Part shown: in pieces, positions 14,077 through 44,002 of the stretch
Numbering within the stretch: position 1 is the first letter of the stretch
Layout: the number at the start of each line of letters is the position of its first letter
DNA from: Acidimicrobiales bacterium
GTDB taxonomy: Bacteria > Actinomycetota > Acidimicrobiia > Acidimicrobiales > Aldehydirespiratoraceae
Assembly (NCBI GenBank): GCA_033344915.1
Contig: JAWPML010000001.1
Coordinates: 2,848,369-2,912,368 of the forward strand
Direction of reading: 5' to 3'
Length of the DNA: 64,000 nt
Made by a program: the position numbers and the translations under genes
The notes under the pieces: generated by a model
Database searches by the model: none
Told to the model about the DNA's origin: nothing
The model's input: the letters and a program-made list of their open reading frames with translations, nothing else

Positions 14077-14092
14077 TCTAACATCCGTGTCA
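14077..14092 (-). promoter_or_regulatory. TGAC[AG]CNNNTGTTAGA motif, copy 1 (KARI/PhoD)
   Basis: TGACACGGATGTTAGA on the minus strand, between the divergent KARI-like and PhoD genes. The extended -10-like TGTTAGAAA is placed six bases before the KARI ATG, which suits a leaderless transcript. The imperfect dyad TGACA-N4-TGTTA suggests an operator overlapping the promoter. Confidence 0.6.
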
Positions 14093-15765
14093 TGTCTCCT
14101 CCCAACGGTCCGGTGAGTCGCCGGACGTTCCTCGCCGCGTCGGCCGGGATCGTGGTCGCGGCGTGCAGCGGCGACGACGCCGGCGACACGGCCGAGGCGA
14201 CGACCACGACGACCGGATCGACGTCGACGTCGCCGCCGACAACGGCATCCACGACGACCACGACGGTGCCGGTTCCGGCGATGACCGGAGACCCCTTCAC
14301 CCTCGGTGTGGCATCGGGTGACCCGCTGGCCGACGCCGTGGTGATCTGGACGCGCGTGGCGCCGGACCCGTTCGCCGACGATGCCGGCGTCGACGGCGAC
14401 CAAGTGCCGGTCCAGTGGGCCGTGGCGACCGACGAAGCGTTCACCGAGATCATCGCCGACGGCACCTTCGTGACGACGGCGGCGCACGGTCACTCCGTGC
14501 ATGTCGACGTCACCGATCTCGACCCGGCGACGAGCTATTGGTACCAGTTCGCCGTCGGCGACTGGGCGAGCCCGGTCGGGCGCACCCGGACGGCACCGGC
14601 GCCGGGCGCGCCGACCGAGCAACTGTCGTTCGCCGTCGCCAACTGCGCGGCGTATCTGTCCGGCTACTTCACCGCCTATGCGCATCTCGCCGAGGAGGAA
14701 GACCTCGACGCGGTCGTCTTCGTGGGCGACTACATCTACGAATTGGAGGGCGGCACCACCCGCAGCCACGGGCTCGACCTGAACCCGACGACCCTGGCGG
14801 AGTACCGGGCGTTCTATGTCGTGGCGAGGCTGGAGGAGCCGCTCGCCCTCGCCCACGCCAACCATCCGTGGATCGTGATGTGGGACGACCACGAGGTGGA
14901 GGACAACTACGCGGGCTGGAACCCCGGCGGCATCGGCTTGCTCGTCGACCCGAACGCGGCGGACACGTTCCGGGATCGCCGCACCGCTGCGTACCAGGCG
15001 TGGTGGGAGTTCATGCCGGTGCGCACCGGGCCGCCGATCGACGGCGTCCTGCAGGTGTACCGGGACTTCACGTTCGGCGACCTGGCGAAGCTGACGATGA
15101 TCGACGACCGCCAGTACCGCTCCGCCATCGTGCAGGGCGACGGCGACGGCGACCTCCCCCGCCCGTTCGGCGGCGGGCCCCAACTCGAAGGCACGTTCGA
15201 CGAGAGTCGCACCATGCTCGGCGAGGAGCAGGAGGCGTGGTTCGAGTCGTCGATCGTCCACGGAGCGACGTGGGCGCTCCTCGGACAGCAGACGATCATG
15301 GCCGAGGTCGACCGCGCCCCCGACGACCCGACGAGGGGCTTCTCGATGGACGCGTGGGACGGCTACGCCGCGCCTCGTGAACGTCTGCTCGGCTACGTCC
15401 ACGATCAGGGGGTCGAGAACTTCGTCGTGCTCGGCGGCGACATCCACACGAGCGCCGTCGCCGACCTGCACGTGTCGTACCGGGAGCCCGGTTCGCCGAT
15501 GGTCGGCACCGAATTCGTCGCACCCTCGATCACGAGCCTGGAGCTGTTGCTCCCGGAGTTCGTGGAGGGGTCACGGTCGAACCCGCACGTCCACCTCTAC
15601 GAGAAGGAGCATCGCGGCTACCTGCGGGTCGACATGACCCACGAGGAGCTGCTCGCCCACTACCGCTGGGTGGACACCACGGCCGAGCCGACGTCGCCCA
15701 TCTCGACCGCGTCGACGTGGCGCGTACGATCGGGCGAGGTCGGGGTCGAGGAGGTGACCGCGTGA
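14092..15765 (+). CDS. phoD: PhoD-like alkaline phosphatase/phosphodiesterase, Tat-exported
   Basis: 557 residues. The N-terminus SRRTFLAASAGIVVAACSG is a twin-arginine signal with a lipobox-like VAAC, followed by a low-complexity Thr/Ser spacer (about 35-65), so it is probably a Tat-exported lipoprotein. The PhoD_N domain begins FTLGVASGDPLADAVVIWTRVAP. Metal-site motifs are VVFVGDYIYE, MWDDHEVEDNYAG and VLGGDIHTSAV. The family hydrolyses phosphodiesters and monoesters with Fe/Ca. The ATG at 14092 directly abuts the shared operator motif; GTG at 14113 is an alternative start that still keeps the RR motif. The stop overlaps the P450 start (GTGA). Confidence 0.9.
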   Translation: MSPPNGPVSRRTFLAASAGIVVAACSGDDAGDTAEATTTTTGSTSTSPPTTASTTTTTVPVPAMTGDPFTLGVASGDPLADAVVIWTRVAPDPFADDAGVDGDQVPVQWAVATDEAFTEIIADGTFVTTAAHGHSVHVDVTDLDPATSYWYQFAVGDWASPVGRTRTAPAPGAPTEQLSFAVANCAAYLSGYFTAYAHLAEEEDLDAVVFVGDYIYELEGGTTRSHGLDLNPTTLAEYRAFYVVARLEEPLALAHANHPWIVMWDDHEVEDNYAGWNPGGIGLLVDPNAADTFRDRRTAAYQAWWEFMPVRTGPPIDGVLQVYRDFTFGDLAKLTMIDDRQYRSAIVQGDGDGDLPRPFGGGPQLEGTFDESRTMLGEEQEAWFESSIVHGATWALLGQQTIMAEVDRAPDDPTRGFSMDAWDGYAAPRERLLGYVHDQGVENFVVLGGDIHTSAVADLHVSYREPGSPMVGTEFVAPSITSLELLLPEFVEGSRSNPHVHLYEKEHRGYLRVDMTHEELLAHYRWVDTTAEPTSPISTASTWRVRSGEVGVEEVTA

Positions 15766-16976
15766 ACAAGGTCGAGGACTGGTTCACCATGCCGCCCTAC
15801 GACGAGTGGCCGATCGCCCAGCCCTACCCGATGTGGGGGCGGGCCCGGCGGGAGTGCCCCGTGGTCGAGACACCCGGGAACGAGTGGGCGCCACTGCCGA
15901 CGTACTCGACGACGAACTTCGCCGACGGTGATCGGGTGCTGCGCGACAGCGCCACGTTCTCCGCATCGATCAACGCCGAGTCGATGGCGCCCTACATGGG
16001 CGAGTTGATGCTCGGGATGGACGGCGAGGAGCATCGGCGGTACCGCAGCATCGTCGCCCAGGCGTTCAAGCGGTCGTCGATCGAACGCTGGAAGCCCGAG
16101 TTGATCGACGGCGTGCTCGCCCGCCTGCTCGACGACATCGCGCCGCGCGGCCGCGGCGACCTCGTCGCGCTCCTGACAGCGCGCTACCCGGTGCAGGTGA
16201 TCTGCGGCATCGTCGGCGTGCCGATCGAGGACCACGAGCGCTTCGCGATGTGGGGCGAGCAGATCAGCGCGGGACCGCTCGAGCCCGAGACCGGACTCGC
16301 GGCGAGCGCGGCGATGATGGCGTACCTCGAGCCGCTCGTCGCGGCCCGGCGGGCCGAGCCGACGGGCGACCTGCTGAGCGAGCTCGTCCACGCCGAGGTG
16401 GACGGGGAGCAGCTCACCGACGGCAAGCTCTACGGCTTCCTGCGCCTTCTCCTCCCCGCCGGGGCCGAGACGACCTATCGCCTCTTCGGGTCGTGTCTGC
16501 TCGCGTTGCTCACCCACCCCGACGTGCTGAAGAGGGTGCGGGCGGACCGGTCGTTGATCATGCCGCTCATCGAGGAGACACTGCGCTGGGAGACCGCGGT
16601 CACGATGGTGAGCCGGCGCGCCACCACCGACACCGAGATCGGCGGATGCCCCGTGCCGGCCGGCTCGCCGGTCACCGTCTACAACGGCTCGGCCAACCAC
16701 GACGAGCAACGTTGGGACGATCCCACGACGTGGGACATCGACCGGGAGCCGATGTCGCATCTCGCGTTCGGCACCGGCGCCCACCAGTGCCTCGGCATGC
16801 ACCTCGCCCGCGTCGAGCTGGACGCGGGCATCAACGCCGTCCTCGACCGGCTTCCCGATCTCCGCCTCGACCGCGACGCCGACCCGCCTGTCGTCTCCGG
16901 CTACGCCTTCCGCTCGCCGCTCACCCTCCCCACCACCTGGACCACACCTTCTGGTGCCATACCTTCTGGTGTCTGA
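15762..16976 (+). CDS. Cytochrome P450
   Basis: 404 residues from a GTG overlapping the phoD stop. Motifs: LPAGAETTYRL (I-helix; Ala-Glu replaces the usual Gly-x-Asp before Thr), ExxR in EETLRWE, heme loop FGTGAHQCLGMHLARVE with Cys343. The protein ends PSGAIPSGV, encoded by a repeat with two copies of ACCTTCTGGTG, and the stop is the TGA in the centre of a perfect 35-base palindrome. The terminus was therefore acquired from a mobile palindrome. Coupling to phoD is positional; no shared pathway is evident. Confidence 0.93.
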   Translation: MNKVEDWFTMPPYDEWPIAQPYPMWGRARRECPVVETPGNEWAPLPTYSTTNFADGDRVLRDSATFSASINAESMAPYMGELMLGMDGEEHRRYRSIVAQAFKRSSIERWKPELIDGVLARLLDDIAPRGRGDLVALLTARYPVQVICGIVGVPIEDHERFAMWGEQISAGPLEPETGLAASAAMMAYLEPLVAARRAEPTGDLLSELVHAEVDGEQLTDGKLYGFLRLLLPAGAETTYRLFGSCLLALLTHPDVLKRVRADRSLIMPLIEETLRWETAVTMVSRRATTDTEIGGCPVPAGSPVTVYNGSANHDEQRWDDPTTWDIDREPMSHLAFGTGAHQCLGMHLARVELDAGINAVLDRLPDLRLDRDADPPVVSGYAFRSPLTLPTTWTTPSGAIPSGV

Positions 16977-16991: not shown

Positions 16992-16996
16992 GGACC

Positions 16997-18181
16997 TCAG
17001 CTGCGAGGGAGGCCGAGGACGCGTTCGGCGATGATGTTGCGCTGGATCTCCGAACTCCCGGCGCTGATCGTCGAGCCGAACGTCGTGAAGTAGGCCTCCA
17101 GTGAGCCGACCGATCCGTGGCGGACCGTGGAGGTCAACAGCGAGTCCGGACCGGCCAACTCCGCGGCGACGCGGGCGAGGTCCTGGCGGATCTCGGTCGA
17201 GTACACCTTCATGAGCGCCTGCTCGGGGGCGGATCCAGTCTTCACGTAGCGGGCGAACCCGCGGTAGCCCAGGCAGCGCGACGCGACGGTGTCGACATAG
17301 AGACCGGCGATGTCGTCGGCGACGATCGCCTGCTCGGCCTCCGGGAGCGCCTCGAGCCGCGCCGGCGCCGTGTCGAGCAGTTCGCGCATCGACGACTCCA
17401 TCCCCATCACCCCCATCAGCCAGACCATCGACCGCTCGTGGGCGAGTGAGCCGTTCGCCATCGCCCACCCGTTGTTCTCGTCGCCGACGAGATTGCTCGC
17501 GGGCAGGATCACGTCGTCGAGGAACACCTCGTTGAGGTCGGGATGCTCCGGCGACACGATCTCCTTGAGGGGCCGGACGGTGACGCCCGGCGTGTCCATC
17601 GGCATGAGGATGATCGAGATGCCCTTGTGCTTGGGCGCGTCCGGATCGGTGCGGCAGAAGAGGAAGCAGAAGTCGGCGAAGTTCGCACCGGACGTCCAGA
17701 CCTTCTGCCCGTTGATCACATAGTTGTCGCCGTCGCGCACCGCTCGGGTCTTGAGGTTGGCGAGATCGCTCCCGGCATCGGGCTCGCTCATGCCGAGACA
17801 GGCCGACGTCTCGCCCCGCAGCAGCGGCATCGCGTACTGCTCGATCTGTTCGGGCGTGCCGAAGTCCAGCAGCGACGGCGCGATGATTCCGAGCCCCTGC
17901 GGGTTGGTGGTGCGGGGAATGTCGGCCTTGTTGAGTTCCTCGAGATAGACGAGCGTCTCGATCGGGCCGGCGTTGCGTCCACCGCGCTCCGGCGGCCAGC
18001 CGGGCACCAGCCAGCCGTCGTCGAACATGCGCTTGGTGAACGAGCGCGACCACTCCGGCACGTAGGCACTCGAGATCGGCGGGTCGGCCGCGATCTCCTC
18101 CGGCGTCGGCCGGTTGACGTCGAGCCACGCCAGGAACTCGGCGCGGAACGCCTCCACCTCGTCGTCGAACCGCAGCTTCAT
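16997..18181 (-). CDS. Acyl-CoA dehydrogenase
   Basis: 394 residues, full ACAD length. Flavin and substrate motifs: MSEPDAGSDLANLKTRAVRDGDNYVINGQKVWTS (written here in part: MSEPDAGSDLA, INGQKVWTS), RTDPDAPKHKGIS, and the C-terminal STISAGSSEIQRNIIAERVLG. It resembles FadE proteins of mycobacterial steroid side-chain oxidation that work as alpha2beta2 heteromers with a shorter partner. The start overlaps the stop of such a partner (ATGA). Substrate is inferred only as an acyl-CoA. Confidence 0.92.
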   Translation of the reverse strand: MKLRFDDEVEAFRAEFLAWLDVNRPTPEEIAADPPISSAYVPEWSRSFTKRMFDDGWLVPGWPPERGGRNAGPIETLVYLEELNKADIPRTTNPQGLGIIAPSLLDFGTPEQIEQYAMPLLRGETSACLGMSEPDAGSDLANLKTRAVRDGDNYVINGQKVWTSGANFADFCFLFCRTDPDAPKHKGISIILMPMDTPGVTVRPLKEIVSPEHPDLNEVFLDDVILPASNLVGDENNGWAMANGSLAHERSMVWLMGVMGMESSMRELLDTAPARLEALPEAEQAIVADDIAGLYVDTVASRCLGYRGFARYVKTGSAPEQALMKVYSTEIRQDLARVAAELAGPDSLLTSTVRHGSVGSLEAYFTTFGSTISAGSSEIQRNIIAERVLGLPRS

Positions 18182-19284
18182 GCCGACGCCCCGAGGAGTC
18201 CGAGCCGCCCCGCGAGCTGGGCACGGTGATGGGTGCGTCCGCCGCACAGGACCTCGCCGGCCTTCGCCCGTTTGAGGAGGAAGTGCAGATCGTTCTCCCA
18301 CGTGAAGCCGATGCCGCCGTGGAGTTGGAGGCCGTCCTCGGCGACGAGCTTCTGGCAGTCGCCGGCCGCGGCCTTGGCGACGTTGACCGCCTCCGCCCTC
18401 GCCTCGTCGTCCTCCGCGATCGCGAGCGCCGCGTAGTACCCGACAGCGTTGGCTCGCTCGACGGCCAGGAACATGTCCGCAAACCGGTGCTTGAGCGCCT
18501 GGAACGAGCCGATCACCTTGTCGTACTGCTCGCGCACCTTGGCGTATTCGAGGGTCACCTCGAATATCCGGCGGCACGCGCCGACCGTGTGGAGCGCCAT
18601 GGCGACGGTCGCCTGTTCGATCACCCGGGTCAGCGCCTCGGTGGTGGCCGGACCCGGAGCAAGCAGCAACGTCGCGGGCGCGTCCTCGAACGCCACGTCG
18701 GCGAGACCGAGGCCCGGGTCGATCACGTCGGTGATCGTGACGGCGCTGTTCGCCGCATCGACGAGCCAGGCGCCGATGCCCGAGTCGGTCCGGGCGACGA
18801 CGGCGAACCGGTCGGCGTGCGCACCCGCCAGCACGGCGGCCTTGGTCCCGGACACGCGCCAGCCGCCGTTCGCTTCGGTCGCGGTCGCGTCCACGGCATC
18901 GAGATCCCAGCGGCCGTTCTCGGCCAACGCCAACGCGCCGACCGACTCGCCGGCGGCCGCGGCGGCAAGCTCATCCTCCGCGCCCGCCTCGGTGAGCACC
19001 GGGATGAACTGGCTGACGACGGCCAGCAGCGGCCCGGGCGCGGCGACCCGTCCGAGCTCCTCCGCCAGCAGGCCGAGTTCGACGAAGCCGAGTCCGAGAC
19101 CGCCCGCGTCCTCGGCGACCCCGAGGGCCGGCCAGTACAGCTCGACCATCTGCGTCCACAGCGCGTCGGCGCTCCCTCCGCCGTCGTAGATCGACCGGAC
19201 GAGAGCCGGTTGACACGCCCCCTCGAGCACCGATCGGATGTTGTCGCGGAGGTCGAACTGGTCGTCGGAGAGTTCGAGATCCAT
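18178..19284 (-). CDS. Acyl-CoA dehydrogenase, probable heteromer partner
   Basis: 368 residues, shorter and more divergent than its neighbour. The N-terminal ELSDDQFDLRDNIRSVLEGACQPALVR is ACAD-like. The middle beta domain is degenerate, lacking the usual SEPxAGSD. The C-terminal helices are clear: YAKVREQYDKVIGSFQALKHRFADM and LQLHGGIGFTWENDLHFLLKRA. Paired long/short ACADs with overlapping genes are typical of heterotetrameric enzymes acting on bulky CoA esters. The gene is the first of the operon and lies downstream of copy 2 of the shared operator motif. Confidence 0.9.
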   Translation of the reverse strand: MDLELSDDQFDLRDNIRSVLEGACQPALVRSIYDGGGSADALWTQMVELYWPALGVAEDAGGLGLGFVELGLLAEELGRVAAPGPLLAVVSQFIPVLTEAGAEDELAAAAAGESVGALALAENGRWDLDAVDATATEANGGWRVSGTKAAVLAGAHADRFAVVARTDSGIGAWLVDAANSAVTITDVIDPGLGLADVAFEDAPATLLLAPGPATTEALTRVIEQATVAMALHTVGACRRIFEVTLEYAKVREQYDKVIGSFQALKHRFADMFLAVERANAVGYYAALAIAEDDEARAEAVNVAKAAAGDCQKLVAEDGLQLHGGIGFTWENDLHFLLKRAKAGEVLCGGRTHHRAQLAGRLGLLGASA

Positions 19285-19311: not shown

Positions 19312-19327
19312 TCTAACAGTGGCGTCA
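19312..19327 (-). promoter_or_regulatory. TGAC[AG]CNNNTGTTAGA motif, copy 2 (ACAD pair/SDR)
   Basis: TGACGCCACTGTTAGA on the minus strand, 28 bases from the ACAD start at 19284 and 34 bases from the divergent SDR start at 19361. The orientation points to the ACAD operon, and TGTTAGAAG could be its extended -10. Confidence 0.6.
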
Positions 19328-24007: not shown

Positions 24008-24023
24008 TGACGCTGGTGTTAGA
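24008..24023 (+). promoter_or_regulatory. TGAC[AG]CNNNTGTTAGA motif, copy 3 (amidohydrolase/SDR operon)
   Basis: TGACGCTGGTGTTAGA followed by TTT gives a good extended -10 (TGTTAGATT). It lies 38 bases before the GTG at 24062, between two divergent amidohydrolase genes. Confidence 0.62.
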
Positions 24024-24061: not shown

Positions 24062-25348
24062 GTGGACAAGAACGACATGATCCTCGTCAGCGTCGATGAT
24101 CACCTGTGTGAGCCACCCGACATGTTCGATCAGCACCTTCCCGCGAAGTGGAAGGACGAGGCGCCGAAGCTGATCCGCACCGAGACCGGCGACGACGTCT
24201 GGACCTTCAACGGCGCGGTGATCCCCAACGTCGGGCTCAACGCGGTCGCCGGTCGCCCCAAGGAGGAGTACGGCCTCGAGCCGACCTGCTTCGAGGAGAT
24301 GCGGCCCGGTTGCTACAGCGTCGACGACCGCATCAAGGACATGGACGCGGGCGGCGTGCTCGGGTCGATGTGCTTCCCGTCGTTCCCCGGCTTCGCGGGG
24401 CGGCTCTTCGCCGACCACCCCGACAAGGAGTTCGCGGCCGACCTGATCCGGGCCTACAACGACTGGCACATCGACGAGTGGTGTGGGGCCCATCCCGGCC
24501 GCTTCATCCCGATGATCCTGCCGATGATCTGGTCCGCGGAGGAGACCGCCGCCGAGATCCGCCGGGTCGCCGACAAGGGCTGCCACTCGATCACCTTCAC
24601 CGAGAACCCCGTGCCCCTCGGGCAGCCGAGCTGGCACGACGAGGACTACTGGGACCCGATGTTCCACGCGCTCGTCGACTGCGACACCGTGCTGTCGATC
24701 CACCTCGGGTCGTCGGGCCAGATGGTCGTCACCGCACCGGACGCCCCGATGGACGTCATGATCCAGATGCAGCCGATGAACATCTCCACAGCCGCGGCCG
24801 ACCTGATCTGGTCGACCATCCCCCGCCGTCATTCCGACATCAAGATCGCGCTCTCCGAGGGTGGCACCGGCTGGGTCCCCTACTTCATGGACCGGGCCGA
24901 CAAGACCTACGACATGCACCACCTCTGGACCGGTCAGGACTTCGGCGACCTCAAGCCGAGCGACGTGTTCCGCCGCAACTTCCTGACGTGCTTCATCACC
25001 GATCCGGTCGGCATCAAGATGCGCCACGAGATCGGCATCGACAACATCACCTGGGAGATGGACTACCCCCACTCCGACTCGAACTGGCCGTGGGCTCCGG
25101 AGGAACTCGAGGAGCACCTCGCCGATGTTCCCGACGACGAGATCCACAAGATCACCCATCGCAACGCGATGGAGTGGTTCTCCTACGACCCCTTCTCGGT
25201 GATCCCCCGCGAGGAGTGCACGGTGGGTGCGCTCCGGGCCCGAGCCGGCGACCACGACGTGTCGGAGAAGTCGATGCTCACCGGGCGCCACGACCGAGAC
25301 GACAAGATCTCGCTGGCGGAGTTCGCGGGTCGCACCTCGGCCCGCTGA
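24062..25348 (+). CDS. Amidohydrolase family protein (amidohydrolase-2 fold)
   Basis: 428 residues from a GTG with AAGGGGGA upstream. N-terminal LVSVDDHLCEPPDMF (VDDHLxEP, the motif of another amidohydrolase-2 subgroup), SIHLGSSGQM mid-protein, ALSEGGTGWVP, and the C-terminal WEMDYPHSDSNWPWAP with the Asp near residue 340 that usually binds the metal or water. The C-terminal 60 residues are polar and extended beyond the barrel. It is the first gene of an operon with an SDR two bases downstream. Reaction unknown; a decarboxylase or hydrolase on a ring-derived acid is possible. Confidence 0.87.
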   Translation: MDKNDMILVSVDDHLCEPPDMFDQHLPAKWKDEAPKLIRTETGDDVWTFNGAVIPNVGLNAVAGRPKEEYGLEPTCFEEMRPGCYSVDDRIKDMDAGGVLGSMCFPSFPGFAGRLFADHPDKEFAADLIRAYNDWHIDEWCGAHPGRFIPMILPMIWSAEETAAEIRRVADKGCHSITFTENPVPLGQPSWHDEDYWDPMFHALVDCDTVLSIHLGSSGQMVVTAPDAPMDVMIQMQPMNISTAAADLIWSTIPRRHSDIKIALSEGGTGWVPYFMDRADKTYDMHHLWTGQDFGDLKPSDVFRRNFLTCFITDPVGIKMRHEIGIDNITWEMDYPHSDSNWPWAPEELEEHLADVPDDEIHKITHRNAMEWFSYDPFSVIPREECTVGALRARAGDHDVSEKSMLTGRHDRDDKISLAEFAGRTSAR

Positions 25349-25350
25349 GG

Positions 25351-26106
25351 ATGTACGACCTCGGCGGGCGCACCGCGCTCGTCACCGGCGCGGCCGGCGG
25401 CGGCATCGGCAAGGCCACCGCTCGCCGCCTTCTCCTCGAAGGAGCCAACGTGGTCGTCACCGATCCGCACGAGCGCCGCACCGACGAGACGGTCGCCGCG
25501 TTCGCCGACGAGTTCGGGGCCGACCGGGTGATGGGCGCGTACCTCGACGCCGGTGACCGCGACCAGATCGACGAGGTCCTCGCCGCCGCCCGCGACCGGT
25601 TCGGCATCGTCGACGTGCTCGTCAACAACGCCGCTGTCAATGCCCTCAATCCGGTGGGCGACATGACGCCCGAGGAGTGGGACTGGGCGATCGGGGTCAA
25701 CCTCTCCGGCCCCTGGTACCTGTGCCGCGCCGTTCTCCCGGCGATGGCCGAACAGGGCTGGGGTTCGATCGTCAACATCACGTCCGTCGCCGGCTGGATC
25801 CACGGCACCAACGAGGGCCCCTACGCCGGGGCCAAGGCCGCGCTGCATCAGCTCACGCGGACGATAGCGACCGAGTACGGACCTCAGGGCATCCGCTGCA
25901 ACGGCGTCGCCCCGGGAATCATCCACACGTGGTTCGTCGACGCCAAGGCGCCGCAGTTGCTGGACGAAGCGCCGAAGACGCCGGTGCGGCGCCTCGGCAC
26001 GCCGGAGGACATCGCCAACGTCGTCGCCTGGCTGGTGAGCGACGAGTCGAGCTTCGTCACCGGCGAGACGATCAACGCCAGCGGGGGCTGGTACATGCGG
26101 CCCTAG
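25351..26106 (+). CDS. SDR family oxidoreductase (FabG-like)
   Basis: 251 residues. Motifs: ALVTGAAGGGIGKATARRL, VDVLVNNAAVN, NITSVAGWIHG, YAGAKAALHQLTR, CNGVAPGIIHT and VTGETINASGGWYMRP. A standard short SDR with a complete Ser-Tyr-Lys set. It lies two bases after the amidohydrolase stop and should be co-transcribed under the copy-3 motif. Its stop and that of the convergent amidoligase-like gene share the bases CTAG (26103-26106). Confidence 0.9.
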   Translation: MYDLGGRTALVTGAAGGGIGKATARRLLLEGANVVVTDPHERRTDETVAAFADEFGADRVMGAYLDAGDRDQIDEVLAAARDRFGIVDVLVNNAAVNALNPVGDMTPEEWDWAIGVNLSGPWYLCRAVLPAMAEQGWGSIVNITSVAGWIHGTNEGPYAGAKAALHQLTRTIATEYGPQGIRCNGVAPGIIHTWFVDAKAPQLLDEAPKTPVRRLGTPEDIANVVAWLVSDESSFVTGETINASGGWYMRP

Positions 26107-28796: not shown

Positions 28797-28800
28797 GGAC

Positions 28801-29433: not shown

Positions 29434-29545
29434 GGTTGGCCCTCTCTCCGTGGTGTGGTCGTCGCTCGCGACCATGCAGGGCGCCCGTCAGCGGCGCGTC
29501 AGTCACGGCGCTGGCGGGCCATCGCGAAGCGGGCGATCATGGCCC

Positions 29546-33381: not shown

Positions 33382-33397
33382 TGACACGACTGTTAGA
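33382..33397 (+). promoter_or_regulatory. TGAC[AG]CNNNTGTTAGA motif, copy 4 (amidohydrolase-P450 operon)
   Basis: TGACACGACTGTTAGA, 18 bases before the ATG at 33416, with CCGGAGG in between. As an extended -10, it would give a very short leader that still contains the Shine-Dalgarno. Confidence 0.62.
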
Positions 33398-33415: not shown

Positions 33416-34594
33416 ATGGCGCGCACGATCGACTACCCCGTCTTCGATGCCGACAACCACATGTACGAAACGGAGGAGGCCTTCACCCGCTACCTCCCCG
33501 ACGCGCACAAGGGCGCGATCAAGTACGTCCAGGTGAACGGACGCACGAAGATCGCGATCAACAACACCATCTCGGACTACATCCCGAATCCGACCTTCGA
33601 GGTCGTCGCCCAACCGGGCGCCCAGGAGGAGTACTTCCGCACCGGCAACCCCGACGGCAAGAGCCTTCGCGAGATCTTCGGCGAACCGATGAAATGCCCG
33701 GATTGGGCCCGCAACGCCGCGGCCCGCCTCCCCCACCTCGACGAACTGGGGCTCGACGGCTCGCTCATGTTCCCCACCCTCGCCAGCCTCCTCGAGGAGC
33801 GCATGCGCGACGACCCGGACCTCTGCCACGCCGCGATCCACTCGCTCAACCAGTGGATCTACGACGAGTGGACGTTCAACCACGAGGACCGCATCTTCGC
33901 CACACCGGTGATCGCTCTGCCGATCGTGGAGAAGGCGATCGAGGAGCTCGAGTGGGTCCTCGATCGAGGCGCCCGCTGCATCCTCATCCGCCCGGCTCCC
34001 GCCTGGGGCCTGCGAGGCCCGCGCTCGCCGGGGCTCGAGGAGTTCGACCCGTTCTGGGCCCGCGTACAGGAGGCCGGTGTCTTCGTCGGCATGCATTCGT
34101 CCGACTCGGGCTACGCCGATCTGGCGAGCGTCTGGGAAGGCCGGGGCGAGTTCCTCCCGTTCCAGCCGAACCCGTTCCGGAGCCTCGTCATGAGCAATCG
34201 GCCGATCACCGACATGATGAACGCGATGATCTGCCATGGCGCGTTCACCCGGTTCCCCGACATGCGGTTCGGCACGATCGAGAACGGCGGCACCTGGGTG
34301 AAGCCCCTCGTCGAGGGCCTCGAGGCGATCTACAAGAAGATGCCCCACGAGTTCGACGAGCACCCGGTGAACACCTTCCGGCGCAACGTCTACGTCAACC
34401 CGTTCTGGGAGGACGCCATCGAGGGGCTGATCGAGATCATGACGCCGGACCGACTCCTCTTCGGCTCCGACTATCCGCACCCGGAGGGGCTCGCGAACCC
34501 GATCTCGTTCGCGGACGATCTCCCCGACAGCCTGTCCGATGCCGACGTGGCGAAGATCATGGGCGGCAACCTCAAGGAACTGCTGAAGGTCTGA
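33416..34594 (+). CDS. Amidohydrolase family protein (DADNHxYE subgroup)
   Basis: 392 residues. N-terminal YPVFDADNHMYETEEAF matches the 22756-23925 and 63784 proteins. Also GMHSSDSGYADL, TIENGGTWVKPL and LLFGSDYPHPEGLANPISF. GGAGG is placed six bases before the ATG. It heads an operon with a ferredoxin (GTG two bases after its stop), a P450 and an aldehyde dehydrogenase. In this setting it may remove a carboxyl or acyl group from the oxidised substrate; the reaction is not known. Confidence 0.88.
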   Translation: MARTIDYPVFDADNHMYETEEAFTRYLPDAHKGAIKYVQVNGRTKIAINNTISDYIPNPTFEVVAQPGAQEEYFRTGNPDGKSLREIFGEPMKCPDWARNAAARLPHLDELGLDGSLMFPTLASLLEERMRDDPDLCHAAIHSLNQWIYDEWTFNHEDRIFATPVIALPIVEKAIEELEWVLDRGARCILIRPAPAWGLRGPRSPGLEEFDPFWARVQEAGVFVGMHSSDSGYADLASVWEGRGEFLPFQPNPFRSLVMSNRPITDMMNAMICHGAFTRFPDMRFGTIENGGTWVKPLVEGLEAIYKKMPHEFDEHPVNTFRRNVYVNPFWEDAIEGLIEIMTPDRLLFGSDYPHPEGLANPISFADDLPDSLSDADVAKIMGGNLKELLKV

Positions 34595-34596
34595 CG

Positions 34597-34791
34597 GTGA
34601 AGGTCCAACTCGACCGCGACCGCTGCCAGGGGCACGGTCGCTGCTATGTGCTCGCCTCATCCGTCTTCGAATCGGACGACGACGGCTACGGCCTCGTCGT
34701 CTCGGACTCGGTGCCGGTGGAGCTCCACGAACCGGCGCGCAAGGGCGCCGGCAACTGTCCGGAAGACGCCATCACCATCATCGAGGATTGA
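34597..34791 (+). CDS. [3Fe-4S] ferredoxin, P450 partner
   Basis: 64 residues from a GTG. Three cluster Cys are visible: Cys10 and Cys16 in CQGHGRC and Cys54 in GNCPEDAI, the pattern of single-cluster actinobacterial P450 ferredoxins in which the second Cys of a CxxCxxC set is replaced. It should pass electrons from a ferredoxin reductase (none in the window) to the P450 encoded two bases downstream and perhaps to the other three P450s here. The acidic composition fits. Confidence 0.92.
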   Translation: MKVQLDRDRCQGHGRCYVLASSVFESDDDGYGLVVSDSVPVELHEPARKGAGNCPEDAITIIED

Positions 34792-34793
34792 CT

Positions 34794-35984
34794 GTGCCCG
34801 ACGAGAACACTGTGCCAGACGAGAACGAGATCCCCGAGGCCGGTGCGGCCGGCGACGACAGCATCCAAGCCGTCTACAGGATCCTGCGCGACACGATGCC
34901 CGTGATGGCGATCGAGCACGAGATGATGACCGGCACCACCGTCGCGCTCCAGGACGACGTCATGACCGTCCTGCAGAATCCCGACGTCTTCTCGTCGCTC
35001 GGCGCCGCGGAGATCGGTCAGATCCGTCCGCTGATCCCGCTCGAGATCGACCCCCCGGAACATTCGAAGTACCGCAAGCTGCTCGACCCCCTCTTCGCGC
35101 CCCGCCGGGTCGCGGAGCTCGAGGGTTCGACGCGGTCGCTGGTGAACACCCTCATCGACCGGGTGATCGACGCCGGTGAGGCCAACTTCCATCACGCGAT
35201 CGCCGAGCCGCTCCCGAGCCAGGTCTTCCTCACGATGTTCGGCCTCGATGTCGGACGCACGCCCGAGTTCATCGAGTTGAAGGACGGCATCATCCGCCCG
35301 CCGGTCGAGTCACCGGCCGAGGCGACCGCGTATCGCAACGAGACGGGGCGACGGATCTACGCCGTTCTCGCCGAGGCGATCGAGGAGAAGAAGCAGGCGC
35401 GCACCGACGACTTCATCTCACAGTTCCTCGACGCGGAGGTGGACGGCCATCGGCTCACCGAGGAGGACGTGCAGGACATCGGCTACCTCTTCTTCCTCGC
35501 CGGGCTCGACACCGTCACCGCCTCGCTCGACTGCATGCTCGCGTACCTCGCCCAGCACCCGAACCAGCGGCAGCGCCTCGTGGACCGTCCCGACGACATC
35601 CCGGCCGCGGTCGAGGAGCTCTTGCGGTGGGAGTCGCCGGTCGCCGGGGTTGTCCGCGTCGCGACGCAGGACACCGAGCTGTCCGGCTGCCCGATCAAGG
35701 CGGGCGAGACGGTGTCGGTCAACATCGGCTCAGCGAACACCGACGAGCGCTTCTGGGCCGACGCCGACTCGGTCGACTTCGACCGCGAGATCAACAAGCA
35801 CATCGCCTTCGGCGGCGGCGTGCACCGCTGTCTCGGGTCGCACCTCGCCCGCATGGAGCTGCGGGTGTGTCTCGAGGAATGGCACAAGCGGGTGCCCTCG
35901 TATGAACTCAAGCCGGGCACGGTGCCCGAGTACACGATGGGGTTGCGCAGCGTCGACAACCTCGAACTGATCTGGGAGACGTGA
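34794..35984 (+). CDS. Cytochrome P450
   Basis: 396 residues from a GTG. I-helix LAGLDTVTASLD, ExxR in EELLRWESP, heme loop FGGGVHRCLGSHLARME with Cys346. The gene begins with an 18-base near-duplication (GTGCCCGACGAGAAC then GTGCCAGACGAGAAC), so GTG at 34812 is an equally good start and the N-terminus reads VPDEN twice; TTG at 34788 is less likely. It is next to its ferredoxin and an aldehyde dehydrogenase, suggesting hydroxylation of a terminal carbon followed by oxidation to the acid. Confidence 0.94.
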   Translation: MPDENTVPDENEIPEAGAAGDDSIQAVYRILRDTMPVMAIEHEMMTGTTVALQDDVMTVLQNPDVFSSLGAAEIGQIRPLIPLEIDPPEHSKYRKLLDPLFAPRRVAELEGSTRSLVNTLIDRVIDAGEANFHHAIAEPLPSQVFLTMFGLDVGRTPEFIELKDGIIRPPVESPAEATAYRNETGRRIYAVLAEAIEEKKQARTDDFISQFLDAEVDGHRLTEEDVQDIGYLFFLAGLDTVTASLDCMLAYLAQHPNQRQRLVDRPDDIPAAVEELLRWESPVAGVVRVATQDTELSGCPIKAGETVSVNIGSANTDERFWADADSVDFDREINKHIAFGGGVHRCLGSHLARMELRVCLEEWHKRVPSYELKPGTVPEYTMGLRSVDNLELIWET

Positions 35985-37441
35985 TGGACCAGAAGCTGCT
36001 GATCGACGGCGAACTCGTCGATGCCGAGAACGGCGCGTTGTTCGACAACATCAACCCGGCGACGGAGGAAGTGATCGGCCAGGTCGCCGACGGCAGCAAG
36101 GCCGACATGGAGCGGGCCGTCGCCGCGGCTCGTCGCGCCTTCGACACCACCGACTGGTCGACGAACCACGCGTTCCGCAAGGCGTGCCTACTGCAGCTCC
36201 AGGAGGCGATCGAGAGCGAGCAGGAGGAGTTCCGCCAGGACCTCGTCGCCGAGGTCGGGTGCCCGCTCCTCATCACCTACGGCCCCCAACTCGACGCACC
36301 GCTGCGCGAAGCCCTGCGCTGGCCGGCCGAGATGATCGACACGTTCGAGTGGAAGCGCTCGATCGGCGGGGCGGACGCGATGGGCGTCGGCTACCAGACC
36401 GAGCGCGAGGTCTGGAAGGAGCCGATCGGTGTGGTGGGCGTGATCGTGCCGTGGAACTTCCCGATGGAGATCACCCTCAACAAGCTGGGTCCGGTCCTCG
36501 CGATGGGAAACACCTGCGTGATCAAGCCCGCGCCCGACACGTCCGCCACGTCCGCACGGCTCGGACGCCTGATCGCCGAGAAGACCGACATTCCCGCGGG
36601 CGTCGTCAACATCGTGTCGAGTGAGGACCACCTCACCGGCGAGGTGCTCACGACGTCGCCGGACGTCGACCTAGTCGCGTTCACCGGGTCGAGCGCGACC
36701 GGCAAGCGGATCATGGAGGCGGCGGCGGCCACGCTGAAGCCGGTGTTCCTCGAGCTCGGCGGCAAGTCCGCCAACATCTATCTCGACGACGTCGACCTCT
36801 CCCAGGCGCTCGCGAGCGCGGTCACCTCGTGCATGCACGGCGGCCAGGGCTGCGCCATCCCGACCCGACTGCTCGTGCCCCGCGATCGCTACGACGAGGC
36901 GGTCGCGGCGGCAACGGAGAGCTTCGCCAACTGGAACTACGGCGACCCGACCGATGCCAACAACCTGCAGGGCCCCCAGGTGTCGAAGAAGCAGCACGAC
37001 CGGGTGCTCGGCTACATCCAGAAGGGCATCGACGAGGGCGCCCGCGTCGCCATCGGTGGCGGTGTCCCGGCCCATCTCGAGAAGGGGTACTACGTCGAGC
37101 CGACGCTCTTCGTGGACGTCGACAACTCGATGACGATCGCCCAGGAGGAGATCTTCGGGCCCGTGATCTGTCTCATCGCCTATGACGACGAAGAGGACGC
37201 GATCCGGATCGCCAACGACTCGCCGTTCGGGCTGTCCGGCAACATCTTCAGCGCGGACCTCGAGCGGGCCAAGCGCGTCGCGGCGCGCATCCGCACCGGC
37301 ACGCTCGGCATCAACGGCGGCGTCTGGTACGGCGCGGACGCCCCGTTCGGCGGCTACAAGGGATCCGGCATCGGCCGCCAGTGCGGCATCGAGGGCCTCG
37401 AGATCTTCACCGAGACCAAAACCGTCGGCTGGCCCGCCTAG
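35984..37441 (+). CDS. Aldehyde dehydrogenase (NAD-dependent)
   Basis: 485 residues. VPWNFPMEITLNKLGP, VAFTGSSATGKRIM (cofactor site), the general base Glu257 in ELGGKSANIYL and the nucleophile Cys290 in GQGCAIPTRLL, then EEIFGPVI and the PFGGYKGSGIGRQCG end. The ATG overlaps the P450 stop (TGATG). It likely oxidises an aldehyde formed from P450 hydroxylation and alcohol oxidation to the acid for CoA activation. A tandem repeat and palindrome follow its stop. Confidence 0.93.
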   Translation: MDQKLLIDGELVDAENGALFDNINPATEEVIGQVADGSKADMERAVAAARRAFDTTDWSTNHAFRKACLLQLQEAIESEQEEFRQDLVAEVGCPLLITYGPQLDAPLREALRWPAEMIDTFEWKRSIGGADAMGVGYQTEREVWKEPIGVVGVIVPWNFPMEITLNKLGPVLAMGNTCVIKPAPDTSATSARLGRLIAEKTDIPAGVVNIVSSEDHLTGEVLTTSPDVDLVAFTGSSATGKRIMEAAAATLKPVFLELGGKSANIYLDDVDLSQALASAVTSCMHGGQGCAIPTRLLVPRDRYDEAVAAATESFANWNYGDPTDANNLQGPQVSKKQHDRVLGYIQKGIDEGARVAIGGGVPAHLEKGYYVEPTLFVDVDNSMTIAQEEIFGPVICLIAYDDEEDAIRIANDSPFGLSGNIFSADLERAKRVAARIRTGTLGINGGVWYGADAPFGGYKGSGIGRQCGIEGLEIFTETKTVGWPA

Positions 37442-37453
37442 CCGAGCAATCTG

Positions 37454-37543
37454 CCCAACACGAGGAACCTGCCCAACACGAGCAACCTGCCCAACACGAG
37501 GAACCTGCCCAACACGAGGAACCTGCCCAACACGAGGAATCTA
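37454..37543 (+). repeat. 18-base tandem array, five units
   Basis: Five contiguous copies of CCCAACACGAGGAACCTG with few substitutions (GAGCAAC in unit 2, GGAATCTA in unit 5), plus a partial copy before them. The array lies after the ALDH stop, in the 196-base ALDH/CaiB gap. The unit is a multiple of three and has no spacers, so it is not a CRISPR. Its last unit is also the start of the palindrome at 37534-37605. Confidence 0.92.
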
Positions 37544-37605
37544 TGGTCACGAAAGGGTCGCAAATCCCGGCGTTTTCGTGACCCTTTCATGACCAGAGAT
37601 TCCTC
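37534..37605. repeat. Imperfect inverted repeat with 26-base arms
   Basis: Arms 37534-37559 and 37580-37605 match at 24 of 26 bases (inner part GGTCACGAAAGGGTC), with a 20-base loop. A second GAGG/CCTCC-rich fold follows up to the CaiB Shine-Dalgarno. It may end the ALDH transcript or mark a mobile palindrome; it has no poly-T tail on the plus strand. Confidence 0.85.
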
Positions 37606-37637
37606 CCTCGGAGGGGGGTCTCGGAGGGAGACGTGCG

Positions 37638-38858
37638 ATGACGAAGCCACTCGAGGGGATTCGGGTCGTCGAACTGGCGAGCTGGATGTTCGTACCGTCG
37701 GCGGGGTCGGTCCTGGCGGACTGGGGTGCGGACGTGTTGAAGGTCGAGCCGCCGAACGGAGGTGACCCCCAGCGGGGGCTGATCACCAGCGGACTCGTTC
37801 CCGGTGGTCCCGGCGGGGTGAACTTCATGATCGAGCAGCCGAACCGCTCGAAGCGGAGCCTCGCCATCAACCTGACGAACGACGACGGGCGCGAGGTCTT
37901 CCTGAAGCTGATCGAGACCGCCGACGTGTTCCTGACGAACTATCTGCCCGACGTCCGCGAGAAGCTCGGCGTCGACACCGACGACATCCGGGCACGGAAC
38001 GCGAACATCATCATCGCCCGGGGTTCGGGGCAGGGTCCCCTGGGGCCGGACGCGCCGAAGGGCGGCTACGACGGCGCCTCGTTCTGGGCCCGCGGTGGCA
38101 TGGGGGCCGTCTTCCCGCCCGGCGAGGACGGCTGGCCGGCCAACCAGTCGTCGCCCGCGTTCGGCGACGTGATCGGCGGCCTGTCGGTGGCCGGCGCGAT
38201 CGCGGCGGCACTCGTGAAGCGCGAACGCACCGGCGAGGGAAGCGTCGTCGACGTCTCCCTGCTCGCCACGGCGATGTGGCAGATCTCGCCACTCGTCGTC
38301 GCGTCGAAGCTGTTCGGCATGAGTTCGCTGCCCCGGGGCGACCGCCGCATGTCGCCCAACCCGGGCGTCGGTGTGTACCGCACCAAGGACGACCGCTTCA
38401 TCAGCCTCATCCTGTTGCAGAGCGACAAGCACTGGGACGATTTCGCGGCCCGGCTCGAGCGTCCTGTCCTCGTGGACGACGAGCGGTTCAACCACTCCTC
38501 GGCGCGAGCCCAGAACGGCCCCGAGTGCATCGACATCCTCGACGAGGCCTTCGCCGAGCGGACGCTGGACGAGTGGAAGGAACGGCTCGAGACCTTCGAC
38601 GGTGTCTGGACTCCGTTCCAGACGCTCGACGAGCTGTACTCCGACCCCCAGGTGATCGCCAACGGATACCTCCCGTCGATGACCCACGGCTCGGGCGACG
38701 AGGTCCAGCTCGTCGCGAGCCCGGCCCAGTTCGACGAGCAACCGATCGAGGTGGAGCGGGCGCCGGAACTCGGCGAACACACCGAGTTGGTACTCAACGA
38801 ACTGGGCATCGATTGGGACGAGATCGGCGCGCTGAAGGAGTCAGGGGCCATCCTGTAA
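37638..38858 (+). CDS. CaiB/BaiF family (class III) CoA-transferase
   Basis: 406 residues. PLEGIRVVELASWMFVPSAGSVLADWGADVLKVEPP is the signature N-terminus (Rossmann start with PSAG in place of the usual PxAT/GP). LAINLTNDDGREVFLKL and the catalytic-type Asp region GYDGASFWARGGMG follow. The family moves CoA between acids or acts as a racemase. GGAGGG stands about nine bases upstream. It is followed by a double TetR four bases downstream, which may sense the CoA ester. Separated from the ALDH operon by repeats, it may have its own transcript. Confidence 0.9.
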   Translation: MTKPLEGIRVVELASWMFVPSAGSVLADWGADVLKVEPPNGGDPQRGLITSGLVPGGPGGVNFMIEQPNRSKRSLAINLTNDDGREVFLKLIETADVFLTNYLPDVREKLGVDTDDIRARNANIIIARGSGQGPLGPDAPKGGYDGASFWARGGMGAVFPPGEDGWPANQSSPAFGDVIGGLSVAGAIAAALVKRERTGEGSVVDVSLLATAMWQISPLVVASKLFGMSSLPRGDRRMSPNPGVGVYRTKDDRFISLILLQSDKHWDDFAARLERPVLVDDERFNHSSARAQNGPECIDILDEAFAERTLDEWKERLETFDGVWTPFQTLDELYSDPQVIANGYLPSMTHGSGDEVQLVASPAQFDEQPIEVERAPELGEHTELVLNELGIDWDEIGALKESGAIL

Positions 38859-38861
38859 CGG

Positions 38862-40677: not shown

Positions 40678-40714
40678 GACACCGAGTGTACCGATGTCGC
40701 CACGGTAGACAAGC

Positions 40715-40738: not shown

Positions 40739-40760
40739 CAACGTCAGCGAACGGAGCACC

Positions 40761-41723: not shown

Positions 41724-42797
41724 TCAGCCGGCGGCGAACCGCTCGATGGCGTCGACCGTGTCGAGGTCGTCCACCGCCTGCTCCGCCCGATCGACGAACG
41801 CCGCCGAGAACGCACGCCGGCCCGGGCTGTCGGTCGGCCTCGCGACGATCGACTGACACGAGGCGACCACCGTGTAGGCGGCCTGGAGCCGGTGCCAGAA
41901 CCACGCGTCGTCCGGATCGATCGGCGCGGCACCGAGCGCAGTCCGCGCGTCCAGGTACTCGTCGATGAGCGCCCGCTCCGTCGACCGTCGATCCGCCGGC
42001 GACAGCGTCATGGCGATCAGGTAGGACACGTCCCGCATCGGGGAGCCGATCGTCATCAACCCGAAGTCGTAGAACCCGAGCCGCGCCGGGTCGACCCGCT
42101 CGTCCACGAAGACGTTGCCGATGTGGGCGTCACCGTGCAGGACGGTCGCGGGCCCGAGCTCCCACGCGTCCTGGAGCAGGTCCCGGTCGGCGATGTAGCG
42201 CTCGGCCACGGCGACGAACGCCGCACCGAGCCGAGCGCCACTGTCGATGCCCTCGCGCAGGAGGCGCGCCCCGTAGTCGCTCGTCCGGCCGGACGGGGCC
42301 AGCCAGGCCGCGGATCGAGCCCGTGCGGACGGGTCCTCGAACCGCGCGTGGAGCTCGGCGAGGTCTCGCACCGCGTCGGCGAGCAGCGCCGGGTCGAGTC
42401 CACCGACGAGATCCGGAAGGCGGGTGCCGGCCTCGCCGAGGTGTTCGAGGACGAGCACGAACTCGCCCGACGCGTCGTCGACCTCGGCCACGAACGCGGC
42501 CGGCGCCTGCAGGCCGATGTCCGTCGCCATCTCGCGATAGAAGCGCACCTCGCGGGCGCCCATCGACGCCCAGTCCAGTCGCTGCCGTCGCTGCGGATCG
42601 AGCGGTGGCAGCTTGACGAACAGGCGGTTCGGGAGTCGGTCCGGGGCGTCGTGGCGGACGGCGATCGTGGCGTTGACGTTCGTTGCGTCCACGACCCGCT
42701 CGACCGCCACGTCGTCGACCGCGACGCCGGGGGCCGCCGCCTGGAGTGCCTCGGTCAGCCACGATGCCGAGATGTCGTCGGGGTGACGGGGAATCAC
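41724..42797 (-). CDS. APH/ChoK-like phosphotransferase
   Basis: 357 residues from a GTG that overlaps the ACAD stop. NRLFVKLPP supplies the ATP-binding Lys near 67; VLHGDAHIGNVFVDE holds the catalytic Asp and Asn of the Brenner loop, and GFYDFGLMTIGSPMRDVSY the metal-binding Asp. The family phosphorylates hydroxyl groups of small molecules. In actinobacterial and human (ACAD10/11) systems, APH-like kinases pair with acyl-CoA dehydrogenases to remove 4-hydroxy groups from hydroxyacyl-CoAs, and this gene is coupled to an ACAD. That role is an inference. A second APH-like gene sits at 50705. Confidence 0.85.
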   Translation of the reverse strand: MIPRHPDDISASWLTEALQAAAPGVAVDDVAVERVVDATNVNATIAVRHDAPDRLPNRLFVKLPPLDPQRRQRLDWASMGAREVRFYREMATDIGLQAPAAFVAEVDDASGEFVLVLEHLGEAGTRLPDLVGGLDPALLADAVRDLAELHARFEDPSARARSAAWLAPSGRTSDYGARLLREGIDSGARLGAAFVAVAERYIADRDLLQDAWELGPATVLHGDAHIGNVFVDERVDPARLGFYDFGLMTIGSPMRDVSYLIAMTLSPADRRSTERALIDEYLDARTALGAAPIDPDDAWFWHRLQAAYTVVASCQSIVARPTDSPGRRAFSAAFVDRAEQAVDDLDTVDAIERFAAG

Positions 42798-43933
42798 ACC
42801 TTGGGCTCCCGGGGCAAACCGAGCACCCGCTCCCCCACGATGTTCTTGTTCACCTCGGTGGTGCCCCCGGCGATCGTCAACGACCGACTGCCCGCGAGGC
42901 GCTCTCCCCACGCACCGGACAAGGCGTCGAGCCCGAGCACGTCCATGGCGCTCTCCGCGACCCGCTGTTCCATCTGCGACCACGCCAGCTTCACCACGCT
43001 CGCCTCGGCGCCCGGCGTGCGGCCGTTCATGACGGCCGAGATCGTGCGCTGGGACAGGAGCCGGAGCAGCACCGCATCGGTGTGGCGGGCGGCGAGGAGT
43101 TGGCGCACGATCGGGTCCTCGCGCCGGTCGGCACCGGCGTCGGCCAGGAGTCGGTCCACGTTCTCCTGGAGCATCAGCGCGAGCTTCGCGACACCTGCCC
43201 GTTCGAAGCCGAGCGTGCGCGTGGCGACATGCCAGCCCGAGCCGACCTCGCCGAGCACGGCCTCCACCGGCACCTCGACATCGGTGAAGAACACGTCCGC
43301 GAAGTCGAGTGACCCGCCCATGGTTCGGATCGGCCGCGCGTCCACACCGGCCGAGCGCATGTCGACGAGCAGGCACGTCATCCCCTCGTGCTTCGGCGCG
43401 GCCGGGTCGGTGCGCACGTAGAGCTGGCACCAGTCGGCGCGATGACCGAGCGAGTTCCACGTCTTCTGCCCGTTGACGATGAAGCGGTCACCGTCGCGCA
43501 CGGCACGACACGACAGGGCGGCGAGGTCCGAGCCGGCGTCGGGCTCCGACATGCCCTGGCTCCAGATCTCCTCGCCCCGCAGCATCGGCTTGAGGAAGCG
43601 CTCCTTCTGCTCCTGCGTGCCGATGGTCATGATCGCCGGTGCGATGTTGGCAACGCCGATCGCGTTCACCGGACCCGGGGCGCCGGCGCGGGCCATCTCT
43701 TCGATGTAGATGAGCTGCTCGAGCACCGAGGCACCGCGACCGCCGTATTCCGTGGGCCAGTCGATCGCGGCCCAGCCGGACTCGAACAGGGTCGCGTTCC
43801 AGTCCCGGCGCCGCTCGAACAGGGCGTCGGCGTCGCCGTCGTCCTCGTTCAGGTCGGCCGGGAGGTTGTCCGCGAGCCAGCCGCGGATGACGGATCGAAA
43901 CGCATCACCCTCCGGTCCGATGGACAGATCCAC
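42794..43933 (-). CDS. Acyl-CoA dehydrogenase
   Basis: 379 residues. MSEPDAGSDLAALSCRAV, VNGQKTWNSLGHRADWCQLYVRTDPAAPKHEGM (in part), and the C-terminal RSLTIAGGTTEVNKNIVGERVLGLPRE. Standard FAD-dependent alpha,beta-desaturation of an acyl-CoA. Operon with the APH-like kinase. Upstream is motif copy 5, 54 bases from its ATG, in the gap shared with the Liv-type transporter operon, so uptake and oxidation may be co-regulated. Confidence 0.93.
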   Translation of the reverse strand: MDLSIGPEGDAFRSVIRGWLADNLPADLNEDDGDADALFERRRDWNATLFESGWAAIDWPTEYGGRGASVLEQLIYIEEMARAGAPGPVNAIGVANIAPAIMTIGTQEQKERFLKPMLRGEEIWSQGMSEPDAGSDLAALSCRAVRDGDRFIVNGQKTWNSLGHRADWCQLYVRTDPAAPKHEGMTCLLVDMRSAGVDARPIRTMGGSLDFADVFFTDVEVPVEAVLGEVGSGWHVATRTLGFERAGVAKLALMLQENVDRLLADAGADRREDPIVRQLLAARHTDAVLLRLLSQRTISAVMNGRTPGAEASVVKLAWSQMEQRVAESAMDVLGLDALSGAWGERLAGSRSLTIAGGTTEVNKNIVGERVLGLPREPKV

Positions 43934-43986
43934 ACAACCTCCGTTCGGCGTCTGGAGCAGTCTCGCGCCCCGCGCTAACGTCGCTT

Positions 43987-44002
43987 TCTAACACCGGCGT
44001 CA
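43987..44002 (-). promoter_or_regulatory. TGAC[AG]CNNNTGTTAGA motif, copy 5 (ACAD / Liv operon)
   Basis: TGACGCCGGTGTTAGA on the minus strand, between the ACAD start (43933) and the ABC substrate-binding protein start (44047). The orientation favours the ACAD operon with TGTTAGAAA as extended -10; an operator function could affect both directions. Confidence 0.62.

Follow-up and report, generated by a model that had tools for sequence, protein, structure and literature searches.

A shared motif between divergent catabolic genes

The DNA analysed here, referred to as the window, is a stretch of 64,000 nucleotides (nt) from the Acidimicrobiales bacterium assembly GCA_033344915.1 (contig JAWPML010000001.1, positions 2,848,369 to 2,912,368). 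The genome (G000) has 4,481,363 bases in one contig and is 96% complete. The window holds a cluster of catabolic genes, six copies of a short DNA motif and the gene of a 414-aa regulator with two TetR_N domains in one chain, called the tandem TetR below. These features are listed in Table 1.

Table 1. Putative operators, candidate target genes and TetR regulators, numbered from the first base of the window (ACAD, acyl-CoA dehydrogenase; KARI, ketol-acid reductoisomerase; ORF, open reading frame)
Feature	Position	Strand	Remarks
Site 1, putative operator TGACACGGATGTTAGA	14077..14092	-	Upstream of KARI-SDR-P450; first motif base 24 nt before KARI ATG
Site 2, putative operator TGACGCCACTGTTAGA	19312..19327	-	Upstream of ACAD pair; divergent SDR
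Site 3, putative operator TGACGCTGGTGTTAGA	24008..24023	+	Upstream of amidohydrolase-SDR; divergent amidohydrolase-AMP ligase
Site 4, putative operator TGACACGACTGTTAGA	33382..33397	+	Upstream of amidohydrolase-small ORF-P450-ALDH-CoA transferase-tandem TetR
Site 5, putative operator TGACGCCGGTGTTAGA	43987..44002	-	Upstream of ACAD-EcKL kinase; divergent solute-binding protein
Site 6, putative operator TGACACAGACGTTAGT	56593..56608	+	Upstream of FGGY kinase; full match to relaxed consensus
Tandem (double) TetR, 414 aa	38862..40106	+	Proposed cognate repressor; two TetR_N domains
Ordinary TetR, 184 aa	40123..40677	-	Disfavoured as cognate regulator; does not track the motif
Candidate targets 1: KARI-like, SDR, P450	10987..14068	-	
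Candidate targets 2: two ACADs	16997..19284	-	Pfam
Candidate targets 3: amidohydrolase, SDR	24062..26106	+	Pfam
Candidate targets 4: amidohydrolase, small ORF, P450, ALDH, CoA transferase III, then tandem TetR	33416..38858	+	
Candidate targets 5: ACAD, EcKL/APH-like kinase	41724..43933	-	Pfam
Candidate target 6: FGGY kinase	56635..57975	+	Pfam

The starting pattern, TGACRCN3TGTTAGA (16 bases), came from an earlier note on this DNA, and the reversed pattern served as the control. The six positions and mismatch counts given there were exact on rescanning: sites 1 to 5 match the pattern perfectly and site 6 carries two mismatches. The five perfect copies are the only ones in the genome (4.48 Mb), and all fall within one 30-kb stretch of the window; the reversed control has no match genome-wide. 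With up to three mismatches, 15 matches were found in the window against 11.95 expected, and the signal is therefore confined to near-perfect copies. With up to two mismatches, the genome holds 48 matches, the six window sites among them, against 76 for the reversed control, so that loose copies elsewhere in the genome represent background. The loose forms of the motif were accordingly dropped. The genome-wide scan proposed in the earlier note thus places the perfect copies in the cluster alone, but finds no excess of loose copies over the control.

All six sites are situated in gaps between divergent ORFs, with one site to a gap, a placement that had been claimed previously and that is borne out by the ORF and Pfam context. 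The TTAGA end of each site faces the gene named in Table 1, and the first motif base lies 24-69 nt before the start codon. Site 6 touches the start codon of the divergent hydroxyacid dehydrogenase, and an equivalent gap with a site was seen in two relatives. In the site-5 gap (43934-43986) a second conserved block (near ACGTTAGCGCGG ... CTCCAGA) was observed downstream of the motif in orthologous gaps.

Refinement of the consensus

The motif was refined by searches of 100 relatives and then of 397 genomes of the order. Sixty stretches around protein or motif matches, together with the window, amounted to 968,615 bases, in which 59 perfect, 50 one-mismatch and 44 two-mismatch copies were found, as compared with 0, 0 and 14 for the reversed pattern. 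The mismatches gather at positions 6, 10, 13 and 16, yielding the relaxed consensus TGACR-N4-YGTYAGW. It is apparent that the 16-base consensus first proposed describes a real motif but is too narrow. Site 6 matches the relaxed consensus fully and is therefore a full member of the set.

The relaxed motif occurs at 129 non-redundant sites in the same DNA, and its reversed form at none; since presence of the motif or of the protein had been the ground for selecting the stretches, this figure speaks to the form and position of the motif and not to its presence. The spacer is 4 in all 129 sites, and other spacers from 0 to 11 sum to 5 sites. Both lopsided (TGAC...GTTA) and symmetric (TGAC...GTCA) sites were observed; the right-symmetric variant TAACRN4YGTTA had no match in the window and the 60 stretches. 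The half-site centres are 10 bp, or one helical turn, apart, and the description of the motif as an imperfect dyad of TetR-operator type is supported. With respect to position, 121 of the 129 sites are not deep inside a called ORF, though 94% of the DNA is called coding, and 96 of these 121 have a same-strand start 20-300 nt on; the ORF calls are heuristic, and site 2 of the window was wrongly scored as internal in this count.

Conservation of the motif upstream of orthologous genes

Seven genomes of the genus were searched with the proteins encoded behind sites 2, 3 and 4, and the 250 nt upstream of each match were inspected. Matches of at least 70% identity were taken as orthologues, and only those with a retrieved locus were counted. 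One stretch (L145 of G003) was left out, as it had matched the other amidohydrolase that shares the site-3 gap. This protein-first test replaced a comparison of orthologous gaps, in which the motif columns were 92.9-100% identical and the 40 bases upstream 40.5-75.5%, the former figure being partly built in because the rows had been chosen as motif matches.

The relaxed motif was found before all 20 orthologues, 31-64 nt from the start and facing the gene in every case. These comprise seven of seven orthologues of the site-2 ACAD (31-45 nt before the start), seven of seven of the site-3 amidohydrolase (the gap of one genome, G001, was fetched separately) and six of six of the site-4 amidohydrolase. 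Among paralogues below 70% identity, the motif was present in 3 of 17 (none of five ACADs, none of six site-3-like proteins and three of six site-4-like proteins). The three that carry it are 55-57% relatives of the site-4 amidohydrolase, and in them the motif is reversed.

Co-occurrence of the motif and the tandem TetR within the order

Presence of the tandem TetR was scored at E ≤1e-30 among the 100 relatives and at E ≤1e-25 among the 397 order genomes, where some matches are partial; the protein and motif searches of the latter were taken as the same draw, judged by genome labels. Relatives of the protein were found in 10 of the 100 and 24 of the 397 genomes, respectively. A perfect motif occurs in 17 of the 24 order genomes with the protein and in 12 of the 373 without it (Fisher p 5e-17, uncorrected for kinship); among the 100 relatives, the figures are 9 of 10 and 5 of 90. 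The seven order carriers that lack a perfect copy all have a relaxed copy less than 400 nt before the TetR gene. Altogether, the relaxed motif was found around the TetR gene in 23 of the 24 carriers, the exception being a gene truncated by the end of a 6.4-kb contig.

In 17 of 33 TetR-bearing stretches, a relaxed site lies within 400 nt before the tandem TetR's own gene (start codons were placed by alignment). A frequent arrangement, seen in many families, has the TetR gene and an orthologue of the site-3 amidohydrolase (53-57% identity in most cases) facing each other across a gap with the motif. Over 194 sites, the recurrent neighbours are relatives of the site-4 amidohydrolase, P450, ALDH, CoA transferase and ACADs; 51 sites have no window-like gene downstream and 62 none upstream. 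With the exceptions given below, then, the motif and the protein display both the co-occurrence and the linkage expected of an operator and its regulator. The earlier note had offered the TetR proteins at 38862 and 40123 together as candidate regulators; the former tracks the motif across families, but the latter is present in close relatives only.

Sequence and predicted structure of the tandem TetR

The ORF at 38862-40106 matches PF00440 in two stretches, with 106.7 bits against a cut-off of 24, and thus belongs to the TetR family. Two TetR modules in one chain are indicated by Pfam, by an alignment of 31 members and by two helical halves in an AlphaFold model (37 sequences; pLDDT 89.5, pTM 0.87). 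The recognition regions of the two halves are conserved and yet different, reading SRPxFYQYF and SHGxFYRYF in the majority of the 31 aligned members, and R8 and R9 in the N-terminal arm are invariant.

Mce3R of Mycobacterium tuberculosis (PDB 9b7y), a double TetR with two TetR halves in one chain, is the only full-length solved fold match listed for the model (Z 24.0 (VIA), rmsd 4.4, 343 residues); the next solved entries cover one half only (Z ≤16.6). The predicted fold is accordingly that of a single-chain asymmetric pseudo-dimer. The available text of PMC11667970 calls double TetR proteins infrequent and poorly understood and gives Mce3R as the first of them with a solved structure; Mce3R binds an asymmetric operator as a single-chain pseudo-dimer, forms a homodimer of pseudo-dimers, and looping between its operator sites is suggested. 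According to the same text, Mce3R has an arginine pair near DNA in its N-terminal arm (R10 and R11, compare R8 and R9 here) and controls lipid-type catabolism, two further points of likeness. Its sites are given there as asymmetric and 25 bp long, without palindromes, whereas the operator proposed here is a 16-bp imperfect dyad, a comparison made by description. The letters of the Mce3R operator were looked for and not found in the available parts of PMC2277422, PMC11667970, PMC9044949, PMC10843139 and PMC4482099, and the available part of PMC3511530 holds only a mention of Mce3R. Sequence likeness is low: phmmer and profile matches are partial, cross-half and not collinear, the C-terminal half of the 38862 profile aligning best to the N-terminal half of Mce3R. 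Judged by collinear full-length homology, the protein does not qualify as an orthologue of Mce3R.

The KstR, KstR2 and BkaR-type TetR repressors resemble the present system in their acyl-CoA catabolism regulons and short near-palindromic operators, but are single-domain homodimers; identity with KstR is rejected, the NCBIfam KstR model scoring 41.6 bits against a cut-off of 280. Among solved structures, EthR is closest to the N-terminal half (Z 16.6, 21% identity; profile E 1.4e-17), but has a single-TetR chain, and its motif is described in the available part of PMC4482099 as larger, more complex and present in multiple copies. Other motifs, Lcin1 and Lcin2, are reported for Nocardioides in the available part of PMC7593942. 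Among the open PubMed Central papers that the searches listed, none was recognised as describing this operator or its regulator.

Occurrence in other actinobacteria

Named genomes were scanned for the tandem TetR, and 67 named loci from the best 80 matches were examined; some of these are truncated or repeat order genomes, and three weaker Bipolaricaulota loci were left out. Among the matches listed, tandem TetRs occur in Mycobacterium, Nocardia, Pseudonocardia, Rhodococcus, Williamsia, Gordonia, Nocardioides, Frankia, Streptomyces and others, the closest named relative being that of the metagenome-assembled genome Acidimicrobiales bacterium DHS20C19 (90% identity). A relaxed site was found at 43 of these 67 loci, including loci of Mycobacterium, Streptomyces, Rhodococcus and Nocardioides, and the reversed control at one. 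In 12 named genomes chosen from these loci the motif has 79 matches, of which 49 lie within 100 kb of the gene, as compared with 2.8 expected; one of the 12 (G432) was chosen from a locus with no site nearby, and none of its seven matches lies within that distance. In M. scrofulaceum, sites were observed near P450 and CoA-transferase genes.

The form of the site may vary with the protein. With H or R at position 276, in the second recognition helix, motif position 13 is T or C at 64:15 and 17:38 sites, respectively (Fisher 5e-9); this covariation is retained as a tentative reading only, since it is confounded with clade and has counterexamples in L161 and mycobacterial loci. At three loci (L209, L240 and L249) the tandem TetR gene is preceded by a palindrome, TCTGAC...GTCAGA, in which either strand matches the motif; the proteins encoded there have (A/S)RG in the second recognition helix. 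It may be, as nearly an even call, that the tandem TetR family of Actinomycetota shares the operator TGACR-N4-YGTYAG(A/T), each half of the protein having its own half-site. Proteins with an SHG second helix would have mostly lopsided TGAC/TTAGA sites, those with (A/S)RG, which resembles the first helix, would tend to symmetric TGAC/GTCA sites, and operator symmetry would thus follow the internal symmetry of the protein.

The predicted regulon

The relaxed motif has eight matches in the window's own genome: the six window sites, one at 140955 and one at 2985846. The last (2985846-2985861) lies outside the window, 45 nt before the ATG of an enoyl-CoA hydratase gene (ECH_1, 184 bits) and in a gap divergent from an M24 peptidase, and the hydratase is probably a seventh regulon member. 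The single regulon that the earlier note had drawn across the window is therefore supported locally, but probably extends beyond the window.

The gene products named previously agree with Pfam, except that the small ORF of target genes 4, taken for a ferredoxin, has no Pfam hit. In the same gene set, a gap of 196 nt separates ALDH and CoA transferase III. The KARI-like protein (13073-14068) scores 164.9 bits against an NCBIfam cut-off of 336, and 151.2 against 226 for ilvC; as both scores fall below cut-off, it is, judging from its sequence, probably no true ketol-acid reductoisomerase. The three amidohydrolases and the small ORF had no match in NCBIfam, and the other six proteins scanned had matches below cut-off only. 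In a relative, a thiolase with a ChsH2-like partner and an AMP ligase was observed. Taken with the paired ACADs, SDRs, P450s, ALDH, CoA transferase and thiolase of the window, these genes suggest a regulon for the oxidation and side-chain shortening of branched or cyclic acids.

Two further features lie within the cluster. An ORF with an IS200-like Y1 transposase domain was found at 20303-21184, and at 26103-32521 a 974-aa ORF without a Pfam hit adjoins a 1081-aa BTAD/ATPase regulator.

Evaluation of the proposed operator and of alternatives

The computed evidence consists of the motif itself, its conservation, its placement before genes, its co-occurrence and linkage with the protein, and the predicted fold. 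Taken together, these data argue strongly that the tandem TetR at 38862-40106 has the motif as its operator and would repress the catabolic transcripts. From them we infer physical binding, repression in preference to activation, a ligand and the assignment of domains to half-sites. One chain with two different TetR DNA-binding domains would fold as a pseudo-dimer, as in Mce3R, and the domains would read the half-sites TGACR and YGTYAG(A/T), whose 10-bp separation matches the spacing needed by two domains on one face of the DNA. Bound at the start of the catabolic transcripts, the protein would repress them, and a ligand, perhaps an acyl-CoA or a pathway intermediate, would release it.

Several observations weigh against this interpretation. 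Twelve of the 373 order genomes without the detected protein hold a perfect motif, though the reversed control is present in 23 of the 397, and one of the 12 (G111, 77% complete) belongs to a carrier's genus. Likewise, five of the 90 relatives without the protein have the motif, two of them being incomplete genomes of the same genus. In the window and in four same-genus stretches that include it, the 400 nt upstream of the TetR gene contain no site, so that autoregulation there would need read-through from site 4. Of the 67 named loci drawn from the best 80 matches, 24 lack a relaxed site in the DNA retrieved around them; these include the three Frankia/Parafrankia isolates without exception, 9 of the 11 Pseudonocardia loci and 4 of the 6 from Nocardia. 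In 28 background loci, which amount to 219,581 bases and are for the most part single-TetR matches, two relaxed sites were found. Lastly, the genomes are related; the counts are therefore not independent, and kinship inflates the p-values.

An unlikely variant is that the tandem TetR binds the motif but activates transcription, or brings pairs of sites together by looping, and is not a simple repressor. In its favour, Mce3R forms a homodimer of pseudo-dimers, with looping suggested in the available text of PMC11667970, and some gaps have two sites 20-70 nt apart (L168, L174 and L230). In the window, however, each gap has a single site; sites closely precede starts, and those before the TetR's own gene suggest negative autoregulation.

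It is very improbable that the motif is instead a promoter element, that is, an extended -10 (TGTTAGA) perhaps read by a special sigma factor. The uniform orientation at the six window sites and the 20 orthologous sites (31-64 nt) would fit such an element, as would the site-1-type gaps, in all five of which the start codon is 24 nt from the first motif base, as for a leaderless transcript; that codon belongs to KARI in two and to SDR in three. Beyond these, however, orientation is mixed. Sites with T at position 13 have a called start only behind in 9 cases, only ahead in 18 and on both sides in 65 (some near stretch ends), and the motif therefore does not show the simple asymmetry of a -10 element; both orientations occur in front of genes related to the site-4 amidohydrolase. 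Over 193 sites, position 13 is C, not T, in 31%, position 18 is T in only 30%, and no base beyond position 17 is conserved. TANNNT stands at the predicted offset in 41 of the 193; of the 193, 69% have T at position 13 in any case, and all have A at position 14. Motif presence, moreover, tracks the TetR gene. The extended -10 proposed in the earlier note thus retains the site-1 geometry in its favour but is otherwise weak.

There is equally little likelihood that the motif serves another regulator of the cluster, either the ordinary TetR at 40123 or the BTAD/ATPase protein at 29276. Both are encoded in the cluster, and in the nearest genomes orthologues of 40123 occur in the same stretches as the tandem TetR. 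Among 138 stretches, however, homologues of 40123 above 60% identity were found in four, all of the same genus, with generic HTH matches elsewhere, and the BTAD protein in two, each belonging to the nearest relative; with the E-value cut unchanged, the tandem TetR has a match in 110, in some of them covering a single domain. Neither candidate tracks the motif, and both were rejected. That the motif is a chance or spread repeat may be practically dismissed: there is no window excess at up to three mismatches, but all perfect copies lie in the cluster, flanks differ between sites, and the 20 orthologous gaps found by protein all keep the motif.

Significance

For the clade of double TetR proteins considered here, these results would provide a short operator of defined sequence, together with a predicted local regulon and a choice of named genera for further study. 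The right half-site (T or C) varies with a candidate recognition-helix residue, and the division of one operator between two fused, unequal domains is therefore directly testable. Uncharacterised clusters of P450, amidohydrolase, acyl-CoA dehydrogenase and thiolase genes in Acidimicrobiia and other actinobacteria would, moreover, be tied into one regulated set.

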